Notes: generated by a model not told the origin, from the sequence alone. A stretch of DNA of 64,000 bases from Candidatus Poribacteria bacterium (GCA_026706025.1 JAPOZO010000052.1:174337-238336); one strand, 5' to 3'. Shown: positions 21,290 through 32,541, counted from the first letter of the stretch. A program made the numbers and translations.

Positions 21290-23535
21290 ATGAACCACTT
21301 GGAATTCTACACACTCGCGAGAAGTCTTTTTGTCCCTTCAGAGACCCAGGCATCTCACTTTCAAAAACTGATGGTTGAGCGTTATCACGTGAACGTCTCC
21401 ATTGATGATAATCGGTTAGCAACAACAGAAGTAGATCTCGTTTTCAGCAATCCAAATAACGTTCCTATCGGTGGTCTTTTTCTTTTTCCACTACCGGCTG
21501 GCGCGAAACAAAAAAATACCGAGATTCGCATTAGTGGCAATCTCACGGAACCACAGTTGCTGAGACAACAGAAATTAACCGAGTTCTACAAACGCATTCT
21601 TCAAGCGCAAGACTTGCAAATGCTACAGACAATCGGCACTTCCGCGTTGCAAGTAGAGATCCCACCGATTCCTGATAATAGTGAATGTCGCGTTCAGATT
21701 AGATATTCTGAACTTGTTAAGAAAACCGACGAAAGTTTAGTGTACACGCATCACTTGCGAACCAATCAGCTTGTCGAAAGTTTCTTGATGTCGATAGACA
21801 TTGAAGGTGAGGACGCACTTGGCGGCATTGAGTCCCCATCGCACGACGTTACGGTTACGCAAAACTATGCCAGCGCGAACATGGCTTACTACGCTTCCAA
21901 TGTCGCATTAGATTCGGATTTCGTCTGTCGATATGCGCTTACCGATGACTTTTTCAATGAAGAAAGGCTGGTTTTCCATGACGTGTCTATGGATAACGCA
22001 CCGCCATTAACGCTTCACAGCCCTACTTTCAAGCGGAAGCAGCCCGCGCGAGTCATGGAATCCCTTGCGTACAGTGCAATTGTTCCGACATCAGCACAAT
22101 TAAACCCGCCCAACGGGACTGCTTATCGCGATGTCTTCTTCAAAGGACACGGCACGAACCCCTTTATTGATCCTGAAGACGACAACCAATCAACTTTTGG
22201 TATGGATGCCGATAGCGCGTCCTATTCCGTAGTGCGCCGTTATCTCCGAGATGGCTATCTGCCACCGATAGAAGCCGTACGGGTCGAGGAGTTCGTCAAC
22301 GCTTTTGACTATGACTATACACCGCCAACAGACGACACTTTCGCACTGCATCTTGAGGGCGCACCTTCAAAATTTGGTGAAGGCAAGCGACTCCAGTTGC
22401 TACGCATTGGCATCCAAGGACGTGTTGTTCCTGATGTTGATCGCAAGGATGCTATACTCACCTTTGTGATTGATGTCTCTGGTTCAATGAGCTATGAAAA
22501 TCGGTTGGGGTTGGTGAAAAAGGCATTGCGACTTTTGGTCAAACAACTCCGTCCCGCCGACAAGATTGGCATTGTCGTTTACGGAACAAACGCTCGGGTC
22601 ATCCTACCGCATACCAGCGTTGTGAATCGTGAACACATCTTGAAAAGCATTGATTCTCTGTGTCCAGAAGGTGTGACAAATGTCGAGGACGGAATTCACA
22701 AAGGGTATGAACTCGCTCGCAGGAATTCAGACAGCGATTGCATCAACCGCGTGATTCTCTGTTCAGACGGCGTTGCGAACGAGGGTGTAACATCCGCAGA
22801 AGCACTACTCAAGCAAATCCGTAACTATGTTGATGAAGATGGCATCTTCTTAACCACAGTCGGCTTCGGCATGGAGAATTACAACGATGTCCTGATGGAA
22901 AACTCGCGAAGAAAGGCAACGGAAATTACGCCTATGTGGATACCCTTAGCGAGGCGCGTCGTATCTTCGTCGAGAATCTCACCGGTACCTTGCAGATTAT
23001 CGCGAAAGACGCAAAGGTACAGGTCAAGTTCAATCCAGACACCGTGCGATCCTTCCGGCTGATTGGTTATGAAAATCGCCAGATGAAACATGAGGATTTC
23101 CGAAACGATGCGGCGGATGCTGGAGAGATCGGATCCGGACACAGCGTCACTGCACTCTATGAAGTTAAACGCAATAAAGGTGTTGATACAGGTAGACTCG
23201 CTAAAGTCTCTATACGGTATGAAGACCCCGATACACAGAAAGTAACGGAAGTCAGCGAGAAATTCCGTGTTGAAGACCTTAAAAACCAGTTTGAGGGCAC
23301 TTCACTCGGATTTCAGTTTGCCGCCACTGTCGCGCAATTTGCTGAAATTCTACGAGAGAGCGTCTGGGCGAAAAATGGTTGTTTGAAGACCGTCCATCAG
23401 ACGCTTAAAGGCATCTTGCAACAGCATCCAAAGGTTGCCGCAAAAGATGAAACGCAAGCCGAGAAACGCGGGGATGAATTGTTAGCACTCGTGCGGAACG
23501 CAAGGTGCATTAAAGAACAGGAACAAGCAAGTTAG
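21290..23535 (+). pseudogene. VIT/VWA-domain protein with single-base frameshift
   Basis: The gene starts at ATG 21290 after AAAAGGAG. Residues about 25-160 resemble a VIT domain (VDLVFSNPNNVPIGGLFLFPLPAGA). Residues about 305-370 match the N-terminal region of YfbK-type proteins (DSASYSVVRRYLRDGYLPP, RVEEFVNAFDYDY). A VWA domain follows with the MIDAS motif DVSGSMS and later CSDGVANEG. At the A run 22899-22902 the frame breaks; adding one A restores LAKKGNGNYAYVDTLSEARR and the C-terminal domain through 23535 (TLQIIAKDAKVQVKFNP). The break is one base, so sequencing error, recent mutation or slippage are all possible. The family is implicated in protein interaction at the envelope; the role is unknown. 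Confidence 0.85.
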
Positions 23536-26049: not shown

Positions 26050-26724
26050 TCAAAAGATTGAACCGATCCAATCGTTTATTAGGAAATCGACCCGTTGAAT
26101 GAGCAAAGCGACACGTCCCATAACCGTGTTACCGAACGCTGAACCGAACCCTATCATGAGGAAGGCGATGCCGACCTTTGAAATCCATTTGAGGGGACCT
26201 CTGTGTTCTACGGAAAAGAAGAAATAAGTGAGAGTACAAATGACACCAATAACCATAAGAACTGCCTCAAAAATGCCCCAGCCAGAGAGAGTACCCGCAT
26301 GAACTGCTGCAAATGGTTCAACTGTTCCGCGCGTCTGCTCGAAAATACTAGCTCTCAACACATTCGGTATTGAAAGACCTGCTCCAAACCCGATCAAGAT
26401 AGCAGTTGGGTATCGAATCAACCAAGTGTGGCGGGGAGACACCCCACTGAAGAATAGCAAACCGACTCCAATCGGAATCAGTTTCCACAATCCACTCCAG
26501 CCTGCTTCTCGAGGCACGCCTGGCCAAAACGGTTTCACTGCTGCCCAGAACGGCTCCCAAGCGAAAGGAATAAACCCTTGGTGAACGGATAGAACGATAC
26601 CGTAACCAACAGACATACCTACAAAGAGGTGTTCTGCAAAACGATAAAACGGGTTATCCTTATATAGGAAACTGTAGATACAAAGCGTCAGTAACGCTGC
26701 GATCCAGATACCAAAAATTTCCAT
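26050..26724 (-). CDS. Polytopic membrane protein of unknown function (operon gene 4)
   Basis: ATG 26724 with GGGAGGG upstream gives 224 residues; an earlier in-frame ATG at 26763 lies inside the preceding gene and is rejected. About six hydrophobic segments are visible (IFGIWIAALLTLCIYSFLY, LFVGMSVGYGIVLSV, LWKLIPIGVGLLFFSGV, TAILIGFGAGLSI, GIFEAVLMVIGVICTLTYFFF, ISKVGIAFLMIGFGSAFGNTVMGRVALL). A conserved-looking loop DNPFYRFAEHLFVG follows helix 1. I do not recognise a named family. It is the last of four tightly spaced genes and starts 4 bp after the upstream stop, so it is probably part of one membrane complex. Confidence 0.75.
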   Translation of the reverse strand: MEIFGIWIAALLTLCIYSFLYKDNPFYRFAEHLFVGMSVGYGIVLSVHQGFIPFAWEPFWAAVKPFWPGVPREAGWSGLWKLIPIGVGLLFFSGVSPRHTWLIRYPTAILIGFGAGLSIPNVLRASIFEQTRGTVEPFAAVHAGTLSGWGIFEAVLMVIGVICTLTYFFFSVEHRGPLKWISKVGIAFLMIGFGSAFGNTVMGRVALLIQRVDFLINDWIGSIF

Positions 26725-26728
26725 TAAT

Positions 26729-27544
26729 TTATCCCTCCCGTCGGCGTTGAATGAAGAATACAATGTTGCCGATAATGACTAATCCCAGAATTAATACATG
26801 CACTGGAGAAGCATTGTTTATCCCTTGTGTTCCCTTTTCTGGTACACCGATAAGTTTCTCATATTCGGAGGCTCCCAAATAGCCAGGCATTAATCCGACT
26901 AACTGATTGGTTTGAAGGTAAGGGTACATATTGGAAACAATAACGCCAGTAACCCCAGCGGCAATCTGTTGATTATATTTCACATTGACATAAGTGATCC
27001 AGAGATCAGTCGTACTACCAGACGCGAGGTCCAAGATGAGGTCAATTTGGTCATAATTGGTGATATCTTTCATCATTGAGATCTCTGTAAGGGGTGTGTT
27101 TGTATAATCTTTCTCAAAGACACTTCCAATGCTGATTCCCATCCGAAGCATAACCTGTTCGCCTCCAGGGCGAAATCCGAGGAAGACATAATCGTCGCCG
27201 TTGACTGCACCTGTCTCTTCTGCAACCTCCGTTATCAATGTATCGGCGAGGGTTGGCGCAAACGGATAAAGGGTCATCCCAATGACACGGACATTTTTAT
27301 CAAAGCAATGTCTTAGAACAGCTTTTGCCATAGGATTGAGTTCCGGTAAAGAGGAGGGACCATAATCGAAAGCAATCATGATAGTCGACCCAGCGGGAAG
27401 CGCGTCAATGTAATCGTAGATTTTCTGTGTCGGTTCGGAAACGTTGATTGGCAAATTGAGTGGTAAAAGCGTTGGAATGATAACCGCCAGTGCAACAAAA
27501 ATAAAAATAAGTCGTCGGTCGAGATTCATCAATTTACTGAGCAT
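26729..27544 (-). CDS. Membrane-anchored protein with Rossmann-like domain (operon gene 3)
   Basis: ATG 27544 has GGGGGAGAT 8 bp upstream, and it starts just 4 bp after the previous gene. The 271 residues begin with an anchor (LIFIFVALAVIIPTLLPL), continue with an alpha/beta domain of about 200 residues (GSTIMIAFDYGPSSLPELNPMAKAVLRH, VRVIGMTLYPF, YDQIDLILDLASGSTTDLWITYV, GVTGVIVSNMYPYL), and end in one membrane helix (PVHVLILGLVIIGNIVFF) with RRRE behind it. The anchor orientation suggests the domain lies outside the cytoplasm. I recognise no family; the alternating strands and helices resemble a substrate-binding or Rossmann-type fold but no ligand motif is visible. Confidence 0.75.
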   Translation of the reverse strand: MLSKLMNLDRRLIFIFVALAVIIPTLLPLNLPINVSEPTQKIYDYIDALPAGSTIMIAFDYGPSSLPELNPMAKAVLRHCFDKNVRVIGMTLYPFAPTLADTLITEVAEETGAVNGDDYVFLGFRPGGEQVMLRMGISIGSVFEKDYTNTPLTEISMMKDITNYDQIDLILDLASGSTTDLWITYVNVKYNQQIAAGVTGVIVSNMYPYLQTNQLVGLMPGYLGASEYEKLIGVPEKGTQGINNASPVHVLILGLVIIGNIVFFIQRRREG

Positions 27545-27548
27545 TCTC

Positions 27549-28199
27549 TTAATCTCCCCCGCCTATGTAAGAGCGTTCGATCCCGAGTATAAGCCGAATA
27601 GCTTGTGAAATCACCCCTAAACTGACACCGAGGATAATCCCTCGCCTGGCAGAAAGATTCGGGTTTCCCAAAATCCATTGCCGAGCTTCTGAAGCACCGT
27701 TGTCCCATGGCAACCAGGATAGAACTGTATTCCAAATCAGATCACCAACAGGGACATTTCCGATTAACACAATCATTGCAGAAATTAAGAGTAATGAGGC
27801 TTCAAACGTCCGGGCGCGGAAGGCACGGAATGCTGCAGAAGCAATTAAAAAGGCAAGGAGCGAGAACATTGTCGCATCCAGAGGGACTTGAACGTTGTTG
27901 AATAACCACGCAAATGCTGGATGCTGCGGTCCAAATGGAAGCCCTATAACTACCATTGTCAGAAGTCCCGCAAAGACAACAAAACTGTATTGCCAATGCT
28001 CTGTGCGGCGGCGAATACGTATCACATGGGTTTGGACGAGCGTTATTGTTCCTACGGCAAGCGCAAAAGGCGACATAATTAGTGCCCAATAAACGACCTC
28101 ATCGTAAATCGATTGAGAGAACGAATGTGGGCTGAACTGCGTAAAACACATCACAACGCCGAAAAGAAAACAGAGCACTAAGGGGACTTGTCGTTTCAT
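27549..28199 (-). CDS. Polytopic membrane protein of unknown function (operon gene 2)
   Basis: ATG 28199 is chosen over ATG 28205 because GAGGAG lies 6 bp before it (the earlier ATG has no room). About six hydrophobic stretches are visible (VPLVLCFLFGVVMCFTQF, VYWALIMSPFALAVGTITLVQ, YSFVVFAGLLTMVVIGLPFG, DATMFSLLAFLIASAAFRAF, SLLLISAMIVLIGNVPVG and a last one near ARRGIILGVSLGVISQAIRLIL). It has no recognised family or enzymatic motif. It ends 4 bp before the next gene and is preceded by an FN3-domain membrane protein, so all four are one transcript. Confidence 0.72.
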   Translation of the reverse strand: MKRQVPLVLCFLFGVVMCFTQFSPHSFSQSIYDEVVYWALIMSPFALAVGTITLVQTHVIRIRRRTEHWQYSFVVFAGLLTMVVIGLPFGPQHPAFAWLFNNVQVPLDATMFSLLAFLIASAAFRAFRARTFEASLLLISAMIVLIGNVPVGDLIWNTVLSWLPWDNGASEARQWILGNPNLSARRGIILGVSLGVISQAIRLILGIERSYIGGGD

Positions 28200-28266
28200 A
28201 AACATCTCCTCAGTGTTACAGGCTTGAAGATTGCATATAGATGATGTTGAGCCTTCATGGTACCTC

Positions 28267-29415
28267 CTAATTGACTCGCTGTAAGAGCGTTGTTATCCAA
28301 GTAATACCGGATAGTTCAAGGATTACGCCGAGGGCGATAGCACCGAAGATGAGTACCTTTCCCCAATCTTGTCCTCGAAGACTTCCAAGGAGCATCGGTT
28401 CTTTCGAGAGGTAAGCACTTGCTGCGTAGAGTTCTTCACCAATTAGGGTGTAATCACAGGCAGCAATGAAGAAAGGAAGTTGGTGCTCAGAGTCTGTTCC
28501 CGCAATCTGTATAGCACCGATAGAATTTCCAGTTTCGGCGAGGATAAGCGATTCGGCAGCGAAAGAGCCTTGTAAAAATACTGTCGCTGGTTTCTCACGA
28601 ACCATGATACCATCAACACCCGCAGCATAAGCGAACTGGTCTTCCGTGAGAAAAAAGATATTCTCCTCGTTGTAAGCATCTGGATGGCCTTCCTCAAGGT
28701 ACGCAGTTTTCACCATCTCTCGCACAACGTTCATCACAATCGGGTCATTGCATGGCACACGTAGCGGGGTCTCATAGTCAGCAGTTCGCCGCGCGACTTG
28801 CGCTAAAATCGTCATACTGGCAACAGTCGCCACGCCACTGACACCACCTAATCCCAATACATACAGAATTGAACGCCCCATCTCCGTGGCTCTCCCGATG
28901 GCTTCATCTACTGCCTCAAGTCCAGGAATGCGACGGACAAATACCTCTTTGCCGCTTCGCGCATTATAGATATTCCAAACAATCGCTGCAGAAAAAAGAA
29001 GCATGGCGATAAACAGCGGGGTCTTTTCGGTATGAAACCATTCCCCTGTCCCTTTAACCGGGGCAGTCTGTTCAGAATCTACAGTCGCCTCTGTTTCGGA
29101 AATAACACGCACAATGTAGGTGTAAATGTTTCCTTTTTCAATAGCGGAATCGACATAAGTCGTTGTTCCAGCAGGCAACAGTTCACCGATTTCTTCAAGC
29201 TCGCCATCTGCTATCTGCCGTAGGATTTGATAGCCGCTGATGCCGGTATCCTCAGCTGCTGCATCCCACTTAATAGTAATGCTGGAGCCATCGTCGTTCG
29301 GCGTATCCACCGCCGTGACATTTGACGGTACGATAGGTTCCCCTTGGCTGAACGCAGTCTCGATGCTTAGGCATAAAACCAAGCAGATGGCTATCCATTG
29401 AATTGTTTTTATCAT
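28267..29415 (-). CDS. FN3-domain membrane protein, possible DUF6754-type (operon gene 1)
   Basis: A 382-residue protein with a signal peptide (residues 1-23, WIAICLVLCLSIETAFSQG) and a fibronectin type III domain at about 27-115 (PSNVTAVDTPNDDGSSITIKW, ISGYQILR, GNIYTYIVRVIS). A membrane helix follows (LFIAMLLFSAAIVWNIYNA), then a domain of about 200 residues (VFVRRIPGLEAVDEAIGRATEMGRSI, LRVPCNDPIVMNVVREMV, DQFAYAAGVDGIMV, ATVFLQGSFAAESLILAE) and a last helix (VLIFGAIALGVILELSG). It resembles proteins annotated as DUF6754, but I recall this only from memory. It leads the four-gene operon, with RBS GAGGAATATA. Confidence 0.75.
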   Translation of the reverse strand: MIKTIQWIAICLVLCLSIETAFSQGEPIVPSNVTAVDTPNDDGSSITIKWDAAAEDTGISGYQILRQIADGELEEIGELLPAGTTTYVDSAIEKGNIYTYIVRVISETEATVDSEQTAPVKGTGEWFHTEKTPLFIAMLLFSAAIVWNIYNARSGKEVFVRRIPGLEAVDEAIGRATEMGRSILYVLGLGGVSGVATVASMTILAQVARRTADYETPLRVPCNDPIVMNVVREMVKTAYLEEGHPDAYNEENIFFLTEDQFAYAAGVDGIMVREKPATVFLQGSFAAESLILAETGNSIGAIQIAGTDSEHQLPFFIAACDYTLIGEELYAASAYLSKEPMLLGSLRGQDWGKVLIFGAIALGVILELSGITWITTLLQRVN

Positions 29416-29565: not shown

Positions 29566-30654
29566 TTAAAAACATTGTGATATGGCTTCTAAAACGTGCT
29601 GATCGTCTACATCGTTTCGGATGACTACCTCCCCAATACGCGTCGGTAGAATGAGGCGGAGTTTACCACCGAGCGTCTTTTTGTCTAAATACATAGCATC
29701 ACATATTGCTTCTGGGGTCAGGTCGGGCGGGAACGTAAGCGGCAATTTCGCACGGTTTAAGAGCGTGCGTTGCCGTTGAAAATCGGTTTCAGAGAACATC
29801 CGCAAATTAACCGCCAATTGCGCAGCACAATTCATACCGATAGAGACGGCTTCGCCGTGACGGTATCTGTTGTAGTGCGTCAGTGTTTCAAGCGCGTGGC
29901 CAAACGTATGTCCATAGTTAAGCACCATCCGCAACCCGCTCTCTTTCTCATCTTTCGCGACGACTTCCGCTTTGTTGACGCACGCGCTTGCGATCATCTC
30001 AATAAGCGTTGTGTCTTCTAAATTTAGGATAGCGTCGAGTTTTTCCTCAACCATTTCAAACAACGGTTCATCGCGGATGACCCCCATTTTGATAACTTCA
30101 ATAAGTCCTGAACGAATATCGCGTTGTGGTAAGGTTCTGAGCGTATCTACGTCAATGAGTACCAATTTCGGTTGATGAAACGCGCCGATGAGGTTCTTGC
30201 CCTTCGGATGATTAATCGCTGTCTTGCCACCAACACTCGCATCAACTTGTGCCTGTAGCGTTGTTGGGATCTGAACGTAAGAGATACCACGCATATATAC
30301 CGCCGCTGCAAAACCGCCCAAATCACCGATGACACCGCCACCGAGCGCAATAAGTGTTGAACCACGGTCGAGTTGGTGTGCAATCAAACTATCCTGTATC
30401 CGAGAGAACTGTGCCAACGATTTGCTTTCTTCACCAGCAGGTGCCTCTATTGTGCTTACATCAAATCCCGCATTTTTAAGGCTTTGGTGAACAGCAGGCA
30501 TATATTGTGATTTAACAAATGAATCCGAAACGATAAGCACCTTTTGGGATTTGGTATGTGACGTAAGCAGTTCGCCAACCCGATTAAGAAGCGCGCCTCC
30601 GATAATGATCGGATAGCTATTATCCCCGAGTTCTACGCGTAAAGTTTTCGTCAT
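29566..30654 (-). CDS. aroB: 3-dehydroquinate synthase
   Basis: A 362-residue AroB of normal length. The NAD-binding motif GGGVIGDLGGFAAAVYMRG is present, followed by VDASVGGKTAINHPKGKNLIGAFHQP and the metal-binding residues in SGLIEVIKMGVI (Glu) and NYGHTFGHALET (His). The C-terminus is complete. It converts DAHP to 3-dehydroquinate in the shikimate pathway. Its start overlaps the aroK stop by 4 bases (ATGA), so the two are translationally coupled. Confidence 0.95.
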   Translation of the reverse strand: MTKTLRVELGDNSYPIIIGGALLNRVGELLTSHTKSQKVLIVSDSFVKSQYMPAVHQSLKNAGFDVSTIEAPAGEESKSLAQFSRIQDSLIAHQLDRGSTLIALGGGVIGDLGGFAAAVYMRGISYVQIPTTLQAQVDASVGGKTAINHPKGKNLIGAFHQPKLVLIDVDTLRTLPQRDIRSGLIEVIKMGVIRDEPLFEMVEEKLDAILNLEDTTLIEMIASACVNKAEVVAKDEKESGLRMVLNYGHTFGHALETLTHYNRYRHGEAVSIGMNCAAQLAVNLRMFSETDFQRQRTLLNRAKLPLTFPPDLTPEAICDAMYLDKKTLGGKLRLILPTRIGEVVIRNDVDDQHVLEAISQCF

Positions 30655-31193
30655 TTTGAGGTCCTGACACTTTGTGCAAATACCCGTTTGATATATCCCA
30701 TAATTTCTCCGAAGGAGCGGCCTGTTGTTTCCACCATATAATCGGCTGTTGCATAATAGGGGTGCCGTTCTTCGAGCATAGTTCTAATCTTCGTGAGCGC
30801 ATCGGGAGTTTGAAGCAGCGGCCGGTGTGACTGATGTCGAACCCGTTGATAGATTTCCTCTGCTGTCGCATTTAGACAGAAGACGATACCGTTACGTTTA
30901 AGTGCTACCATATTCGCTTCTTTTAGAACCACACCGCCGCCCGTAGAGATGACGTAACTATACAGATTTGACACTTTACGGACGGCTTCGCTTTCCAATT
31001 CTCGAAAAGCCGGTTCGCCATCTTCCGCGAAGATGTCACTGATACGTCGCCCACTATCGCGTTCAATGACATCGTCAGTATCCACATAGCGCATCCGGAG
31101 TTGCATGGAAAGCCGTCTACCTATAGAGGTTTTCCCGGTCCCCATAAAACCGACAAGCACAATGTTGGGTTTCCTTTTTTCCTGACGTTTCAC
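30651..31193 (-). CDS. aroK: Shikimate kinase
   Basis: GTG 31193, with GGTGGAG five bases upstream, gives 180 residues, the usual size; an upstream ATG at 31259 would add 22 unusual residues. Motifs: Walker A (GFMGTGKTSIG), DTDDVIERDSGRRISDIF for shikimate binding, STGGGVVL, and the lid region RPLLQ. It phosphorylates shikimate at position 3. The stop overlaps the aroB start, so this is an aroK-aroB operon typical of many bacteria. Confidence 0.93.
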   Translation of the reverse strand: MKRQEKRKPNIVLVGFMGTGKTSIGRRLSMQLRMRYVDTDDVIERDSGRRISDIFAEDGEPAFRELESEAVRKVSNLYSYVISTGGGVVLKEANMVALKRNGIVFCLNATAEEIYQRVRHQSHRPLLQTPDALTKIRTMLEERHPYYATADYMVETTGRSFGEIMGYIKRVFAQSVRTSK

Positions 31194-31330
31194 CGGTTCT
31201 CCACCTTTATTGCGACTGTTACCGTAACTCTGTTGGGGCGATTTAAAATCGGGTCCCATCCGTTACTGGGAAAGGATTTACTGACAACTGAAAACTATTA
31301 TACCGCTTTTAAAAAATATTGTAAAGGGTT

Positions 31331-31403: not shown

Positions 31404-32000
31404 ATGCCACGACAACTTAGGATGGTACGTCCCAATTTGGAAGATTTACCGGCGTTAGAACTTCCGACAGACTACGGTATGCGCACTTATCAGAAAGGCG
31501 ATGAGGCACACTGGGCACGTATTATCAGTGATTCGTTTGGTGGCAGGGAGCGTACTGCACAGGACACGGAGAACGAGATTACGGGCAGAGATGTTTTTAT
31601 CCCCGAAGGTTTCTACTTCGCAACCCATCGAGGGGTTCCTGTCGGAACTGCTTGTGCCTGGCGGCAATCTGTAGATGAAAAAGATGTCGGATACGTACAC
31701 ATGGTAGGCGTTGTCGGTGAACACACCGGACACAAACTCGGAAAATGGGTTTCACTTGCTGTTCTCTCCTACTTTCGGGACAACGGGTTCAAATGTTCTA
31801 TGCTTGACACCGACGATTTTCGTATCCCTGCCATTAAAACCTATCTGAATTTAGGGTTCATACCCGTTTATGTTGAAAAAGGGCAACCAGAGCGATGGTC
31901 GGATATCTTTGAGAAATTGGGACTTCCGTCAATGTCAGCACAGATCCTAAACGCCAAAGAAACACTCCCTACAGAACTATGGACGAAGGTCTCACGGTAA
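31404..32000 (+). CDS. GNAT-family N-acetyltransferase (first of a pair)
   Basis: A 198-residue protein. An N-terminal extension of about 30 residues precedes the GNAT fold: YGMRTYQKGDEAHWARII, VGTACAWRQS, then the acetyl-CoA-binding stretch GEHTGHKLGKWVSLAVLSYF and SMLDTDDFRIPAIKTYLNLGFIPVY. The pattern fits acetylation of an amine or peptide, substrate unknown. AAAGGAG lies upstream, and a promoter is readable. The next gene is a paralogue 8 bp downstream, and a membrane glycosyltransferase follows. Confidence 0.88.
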   Translation: MPRQLRMVRPNLEDLPALELPTDYGMRTYQKGDEAHWARIISDSFGGRERTAQDTENEITGRDVFIPEGFYFATHRGVPVGTACAWRQSVDEKDVGYVHMVGVVGEHTGHKLGKWVSLAVLSYFRDNGFKCSMLDTDDFRIPAIKTYLNLGFIPVYVEKGQPERWSDIFEKLGLPSMSAQILNAKETLPTELWTKVSR

Positions 32001-32007
32001 AAATACA

Positions 32008-32541
32008 GTGGAAGATCAACTCAGAATGGTCCTGCACAGTTTAGAAAAACTACCGAGACTCCAGTGTCCTGATGGCTATTACATCCGAACCTATAAAAAA
32101 GGGGACGAAGCATATTGGGCACACATAATGGACAGGTCGTTTGTAGACCAAGGCAGAACTACCGAAGATACGTATGCTAATGTTATCAACCAACCTAACT
32201 TTGATCCGAACGGTCTCTGCTTTGTTATCCACAAGGACACACCTATCGGCACAGCATGCGCTTGGAATAGGCACCTCCGTGGTAAACCGATCGGTTACAT
32301 TGATATGCTCGCTGTGCTGCCAGAACACACTGGACATAAGCTCGGAAAGTGGCTAACAGTGTTTCTCCTTCACTATTTTAAAGCGCAGCACGTGTCGTCC
32401 GTGATGTTGGACACCGACGATTTTCGCCTACCCGCAATCAAAAATTATCTCAATCTCGGTTTTGTTCCAGTTTATGTCCGTGAAAACCATGTACTGCGTT
32501 GGCGGAATGTCTTTGAAAAACTGGAGTTTCTCCAAGCATGA
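32008..32541 (+). CDS. GNAT-family N-acetyltransferase (second of a pair)
   Basis: GTG 32008 gives 177 residues that align with the previous gene throughout (YIRTYKKGDEAYWAHIM, IGTACAWNRHL, EHTGHKLGKWLTVFLLHYF, VMLDTDDFRLPAIKNYLNLGFVPVY), so the two arose by duplication. The ribosome site is weak, suggesting coupling to the upstream gene 7 bp before. Its stop overlaps the following gene by 4 bases (ATGA), so all three form one operon. Confidence 0.85.
   Translation: MEDQLRMVLHSLEKLPRLQCPDGYYIRTYKKGDEAYWAHIMDRSFVDQGRTTEDTYANVINQPNFDPNGLCFVIHKDTPIGTACAWNRHLRGKPIGYIDMLAVLPEHTGHKLGKWLTVFLLHYFKAQHVSSVMLDTDDFRLPAIKNYLNLGFVPVYVRENHVLRWRNVFEKLEFLQA

Follow-up and report, generated by a model that had tools for sequence, protein, structure and literature searches.

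Four genes for membrane proteins in this poribacterial DNA, referred to as A, B, C and D, very probably encode a single inner-membrane complex, and they belong to a larger module, g-F-E-A-B-C-D, whose seven genes make up one operon in several phyla as well as in deep Poribacteria (L035, L047). The explanation proposed for the whole module, an inner-membrane A-D complex cycled by an ATPase module of F, E and g, is given a little less than an even chance of being right. It is supported by the gene order, the co-duplication of the four genes, the co-occurrence of A and E, the ATPase motifs of F, and the folds of A and C.

An ORF check of the window (the whole 64-kb stretch of DNA that was analysed) placed all four genes on the minus strand, with spacings of 67 bp between A and B, 4 bp between B and C, and 4 bp between C and D, which agrees to the base with an earlier note on this sequence (Table 1). 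Relatives agree with the start of B at 28199 (MKRQ..), 6 bp inside an alternative ORF, and with that of D at 26724 (MEIFG..), for which an alternative TTG ORF opens at 26763. The upstream genes aroB and aroK adjoin A in close relatives only and were therefore left out of the module and rejected as functional partners. Promoter-like sites were no more numerous than in shuffled sequences. A mobile-element origin was rejected, as A had no match in plasmids and C none in phages; anti-phage defence was rejected in turn because A-D, F, E, g and a further gene, H, gave no PADLOC-DB match at E<=0.01. Elsewhere in the window, a VWA-type protein on the plus strand (21290-23535) is read in one frame at 21290-23062 and continues in another at 22936-23535, the frameshift near 22900 being either an assembly error or real, and two similar plus-strand ORFs at 31404-32000 and 32008-32541 (together 31404-32541) resemble tandem GNAT-type acetyltransferases.

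Table 1. Positions of the cassette genes, their domains and motifs, and the adjoining genes in the window.
Feature	Position	Strand	Description
Gene A	28267..29415	-	Signal peptide/helix, FN3, TM helix, DUF6754 Rossmann-like domain, TM helix; 382 aa
FN3 domain of A	29092..29328	-	Residues 30-108, predicted periplasmic
DUF6754 match of A	28285..29046	-	Residues 124-377; soluble part predicted cytoplasmic
Densest invariant cluster of A	28432..28569	-	Residues 283-328, alignment of 89 sequences
Gene B	27549..28199	-	Polytopic membrane protein, 216 aa; R125, R186, E208-R209 conserved
Gene C	26729..27544	-	Rossmann-like domain flanked by two TM helices, predicted periplasmic; 271 aa; H249, N260 conserved
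Gene D	26050..26724	-	Polytopic membrane protein, 224 aa; N24, E31, Q130, R204, R211 conserved
DNPFYRFAEHLF motif of D	26623..26658	-	Between TM1 and TM2; singled out in the earlier note
aroB + aroK	29566..31259	-	Upstream of A, same strand

Gene A had been described as an FN3 protein with a DUF6754-like part, and profile searches bear this out, with a match to DUF6754 (PF20539) of 402.5 bits against a cut-off of 27 (E=8e-121, profile positions 3-256 of 257) and an FN3 domain for which the HMM signal is weak (E=0.012, below cut-off) and the structural one clear. The AlphaFold model (mean pLDDT 92.5, 67 sequences) runs from an N-terminal hydrophobic helix through FN3, a second helix and a Rossmann-like domain to a last helix. 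Foldseek matches to the whole model were FN3 domains, which crowded out the DUF6754 part, and a PDB sequence search with A found no credible relative. The FN3 domain is absent from some Poribacteria copies of A and from most Armatimonadota relatives, and it appears dispensable because some Poribacteria copies match only beyond about residue 104-125. In two Armatimonadota-type loci (L184, L185), A alone is doubled in tandem, giving g-A-A-B-C-D, and lacks FN3.

Conservation in A is concentrated in its alpha/beta domain, which the charge distribution, taken by itself, suggests to be cytoplasmic; this predicted-cytoplasmic domain, and not the predicted-periplasmic domain of C, is the most conserved part of the cassette. 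Alignment of 89 sequences revealed about 20 near-invariant polar or Gly residues, with R161, G174, R175, E178, Q260, E288, E294, Q303, Q312, C320, D321, E328, D350 and K353 invariant or essentially so, and the densest cluster comprises G283, E288, E294, G300, Q303, Q312, P314, C320, D321 and E328. Judged from the alignment, these residues look like a putative binding or active site. The earlier statement that the operon holds no enzyme motif stands in so far as A-D match no enzyme family or cofactor motif, but it has to be qualified for this near-invariant set in A, with Cys320, Asp321 and Glu328.

The partners of A are more anonymous, since B, C and D gave no match above the curated cut-offs of Pfam and NCBIfam. 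Hydropathy shows B and D to be polytopic, and C carries its alpha/beta domain between two hydrophobic helices, much as the earlier note had described them, and its remark that no known transport signature is present likewise held, none of A-D matching a Pfam or NCBIfam transporter or secretion family. The AlphaFold model of C (mean pLDDT 95.6, 75 sequences) gave generic Rossmann-like Foldseek matches only, with no specific PDB match, and a PDB sequence search with C returned no credible relative. Its charge distribution alone suggests a periplasmic domain, so that the Rossmann-like domains of A and C are predicted to lie on opposite sides of the membrane. Homology between the two is not claimed: they share the same helix-strand order by eye, and a profile comparison was empty. 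Comparison of B with D likewise gave no support for their being paralogues.

In alignments of B, C and D, conserved polar residues sit in or near the membrane segments, H249 and N260 of C, for example, lying at or in its second helix. The loop of D that had been put forward for checking proved strongly conserved, with N24 at 1.00, Y27 at 0.92 and E31 at 0.99 in 73 sequences. Together with the residues of A, this pattern would fit a binding site in A, and in the membrane part either a path or a set of conserved polar contacts. Some Poribacteria lineages (L045-L048) carry large soluble insertions of about 100-150 residues in one loop of B, and L048 has an insertion of this size in D too.

The order of the four genes shows that their grouping is not chance. 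DUF6754 was found in 82 of 85 Poribacteria genomes, and A-B-C-D is complete in 18 of the 20 longer Poribacteria loci, L042 and L051 ending at a contig edge; the same order is kept in second copies that have diverged, L049 and L050 for instance. Beyond Poribacteria, the best 80 of 537 relatives from a scan of species genomes came from Armatimonadota, Zixiibacteriota, WOR-3/Stahlbacteria, Cloacimonadota, Latescibacterota, Eisenbacteria, Fermentibacteria/Aegiribacteria, Edwardsbacteria, CSSED10-310, Coatesbacteria, Planctomycetota and others, and the order is found in a dozen or more phylum-level groups. A six-frame profile search revealed contiguous ABCD in 70 of these best 80 loci, and most of the other ten are contig ends or ORF-ordering artefacts; homologues thus do not normally occur singly in this sample, which is what the gene-order search proposed in the earlier note was to decide.

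Duplication points in the same direction. Two or more complete cassettes are present in 14 of the same best 80 loci, tandem arrays having two to three copies. In three loci with three cassettes each (L113, L118, L129), copy 2 groups with copy 2 and copy 3 with copy 3 in all four gene trees, and copy 1 is nearest to copy 1 by identity, copy 1 of L113 being less clear in the A tree. The four genes are thus copied and kept together, the behaviour to be expected if their products are subunits of one complex. Conserved order and co-duplication together support the earlier note's proposal of one complex, and from them we infer a physical association.

There are departures from the cassette. Four planctomycete loci (L204, L206, L212, L218) carry E-A or F-E-A without adjoining B-D, and B-D are likewise missing next to A in two WOR-3/Stahlbacteria loci (L068, L112); where B-D are not adjacent, A is the subunit that accompanies E. 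Two further neighbourhoods were observed. In the planctomycete loci L206 and L218, E-A is immediately preceded by a gene that by eye resembles FtsY, the signal recognition particle receptor. In two WOR-3-type loci (L076:6792-12282, L120:9364-14492) the genes downstream of D encode, in order, a DUF4388 protein, a pair of proteins that by eye are roadblock/LC7-like (no Pfam match), two small membrane proteins, ExbB, two ExbD-like proteins and a TonB-like protein.

The earlier note had treated the four genes as the complete unit; their conserved order stands, but the unit is larger, because clustering of neighbours revealed three recurrent genes upstream of A, namely g, F and E, one of which encodes a putative ATPase. 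F (about 600 aa) matches PF13941 'MutL' along its whole length (E=1e-124) and keeps the motifs DCGSTTTK, DIGGATTD and GSGG in an alignment of 32 sequences; with phosphate-1, phosphate-2 and adenosine motifs all conserved, it is predicted to be an actin/Hsp70-fold (ASKHA) ATPase. E (about 375 aa) gives weak, sub-cut-off barrel-sandwich matches, and g (about 110-130 aa) carries the motif LExxKPLSF. In many Armatimonadota a membrane protein of about 150 aa, H, is encoded upstream of g. Most Poribacteria have g, F and E unlinked from A-D, and the genome of the window is among them: E shares the contig with A-D at a distance of about 95 kb (G000:C52:106282-107409), F lies on contig C88 and g on contig C72.

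The link between the two parts of the module is nevertheless evident from co-occurrence. Among 148 sampled Planctomycetota genomes, 35 have both A and E, 108 neither, 4 only A and 1 only E; for 61 Armatimonadota genomes the corresponding figures are 54, 5, 0 and 2. Fisher tests gave p values of 2.6e-28 and 3.5e-6, respectively, which treat genomes as independent and are both made too strong by kinship; despite that kinship, the pattern is clear. E remains single copy in genomes carrying two to three copies of A, which would fit a single ATPase module shared by several membrane complexes.

In the proposed explanation, B and D would form the membrane core, the Rossmann-like domain of C and the FN3 domain of A would face the periplasm, and the highly conserved Rossmann-like domain of A (DUF6754) would face the cytoplasm. 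A soluble module of F and E, with g, would act on this cytoplasmic domain of A, a step for which the chances are judged to be balanced. Within it, F would be an ATPase with an actin/Hsp70 fold that belongs to the GlmL/MutL branch, E would serve as a barrel-sandwich adaptor and g would be a small accompanying protein; by binding and hydrolysing ATP, F would cause the A-D complex to be opened, reset or reloaded. Such ATP-driven cycling is something we infer by analogy with GlmL and the diol-dehydratase reactivases. That the output would be a small molecule or an ion moved across the inner membrane is a guess, and a weakly held one. Against the explanation, the other known relatives of GlmL are reactivases that act on soluble enzymes, g, F and E are unlinked from A-D in most Poribacteria, and some loci have no adjoining B-D.

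The relationship to reactivases can also be read more literally, with A-D as a membrane-bound enzyme whose active site would lie in DUF6754, and F/E as its reactivase, a chaperone that would clear away a spent cofactor or reverse an inactivated state. The invariance of C320, D321, E328, E288, E294, Q303 and R273 in the Rossmann-like domain of A fits such an enzyme, as does the membership of F in the wider GlmL family, MutL/GlmL having been described as a chaperone that reactivates glutamate mutase (PMC4682846). However, no cofactor-binding motif or enzyme family match was found in A-D, and B, C and D have more conserved polar residues in their membrane parts than a membrane anchor would need; this reading is considered unlikely. 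The predicted periplasmic position of FN3 and of the C domain, in turn, would suit a trans-envelope machine energised by ExbB/ExbD-type proton channels, in which F would serve as an assembly platform like PilM/GspL of pilus and secretion systems. Three clades (four Fermentibacteria-type, two WOR-3 and three planctomycete loci) do have ExbB and ExbD genes no more than about 10 kb from the cassette, but these are only 9 loci out of a set of 103 longer ones and L076, and neither a secretin nor a pilin nor an outer-membrane partner is a recurrent neighbour; ExbBD was rejected as a fixed partner, being confined to three clades, and the machine as a whole is considered improbable.

Domains predicted on either side of the membrane could also belong to a sensor or signalling complex, in which periplasmic FN3 and C would bind a ligand and the A domain would signal to F/E. 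Several ABCD copies with one E would then represent several receptors with a shared output, and the DUF4388 protein lies directly downstream in WOR-3. Yet no kinase, cyclase or receiver domain recurs among the neighbours, FN3 is dispensable, and it is the cytoplasmic A domain rather than the periplasmic C domain that is most conserved; such a role is considered quite improbable. Least credit is given to the view that A-D belong to a known transporter or secretion family but have diverged too far for profile searches to recognise them: B and D are indeed small polytopic proteins, but Pfam and NCBIfam held no such family above cut-off and PADLOC none, A and C have no credible PDB sequence relative, and the matches of C are generic Rossmann-like ones only.

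The seven-gene module is widespread in candidate phyla, Planctomycetota and Armatimonadota. It is present in nearly all sampled Poribacteria, most sampled Armatimonadota and about a quarter of sampled Planctomycetota genomes, and because it is kept so widely it probably does something important for these cells. Its description also supplies a context for GlmL-like ATPases in genomes without glutamate mutase, where annotation may otherwise call them mutase accessory proteins. The module is further found in single-contig planctomycete genomes, some of them perhaps from cultured strains, which would make ordinary gene deletion feasible.

Several parts of the module can be compared with known systems. 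Gene A passes the gathering score of DUF6754 as a full-length member, but the Pfam entry gives neither function nor partners, whereas here the family gains a fixed set of partners in B, C and D and in E, F and g. F shares with GlmL/MutL (PF13941, TIGR01319, NF040745, NF040744) a full-length PF13941 match and the ATPase motifs, but is about 600 aa long against about 450-460 aa for the NCBIfam models, and it falls below their cut-offs (223.6 against 475, 205 against 600 and 171 against 204 bits). For NF040745 (cut-off 475) the F proteins of L085 and of the window's genome score 223.6 and 229, and for TIGR01319 (cut-off 204) the F scores are 171.3 and 175.9. The glutamate mutase E chain (PF06368) was above cut-off in none of 83 Poribacteria genomes, and glutamate mutase was accordingly rejected as the partner of F. 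Given the failed cut-offs and the missing mutase, F counts as a relative of GlmL only broadly and should not be named a glutamate mutase accessory protein; it is possible that it works like a reactivase or an Hsp70-type reset ATPase.

E resembles the barrel-sandwich domains of RnfC/NqrA, and biotin/lipoyl-like domains, through its weak sub-cut-off matches to RnfC_N (best E=3e-4, below cut-off where shown), NQRA_N and Biotin_lipoyl, but no Rnf/Nqr redox subunits accompany it, none match A-D, and the remainder of E is dissimilar. PilM, GspL and FtsA are actin-fold proteins of envelope machines, and the pairing of a predicted actin-fold ATPase, F, with inner-membrane proteins having putative periplasmic domains would resemble them; F, however, belongs to the GlmL branch, and genes for pili, secretins or division do not recur in the neighbourhood. 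The open-access literature searched contained no mention of DUF6754, PF20539 or PF13941 and nothing on the gene cluster, and as the system is also absent from NCBIfam, PADLOC and the PDB, the earlier note's view of it as undescribed is upheld, though it may go by another name. A further suggestion, made with clear reserve, is that g-F-E-A-B-C-D may represent a new class of ATP-driven inner-membrane machine, its four-subunit membrane complex being powered or reset by an actin/Hsp70-fold ATPase of the GlmL branch instead of an ABC, AAA+ or P-type motor.
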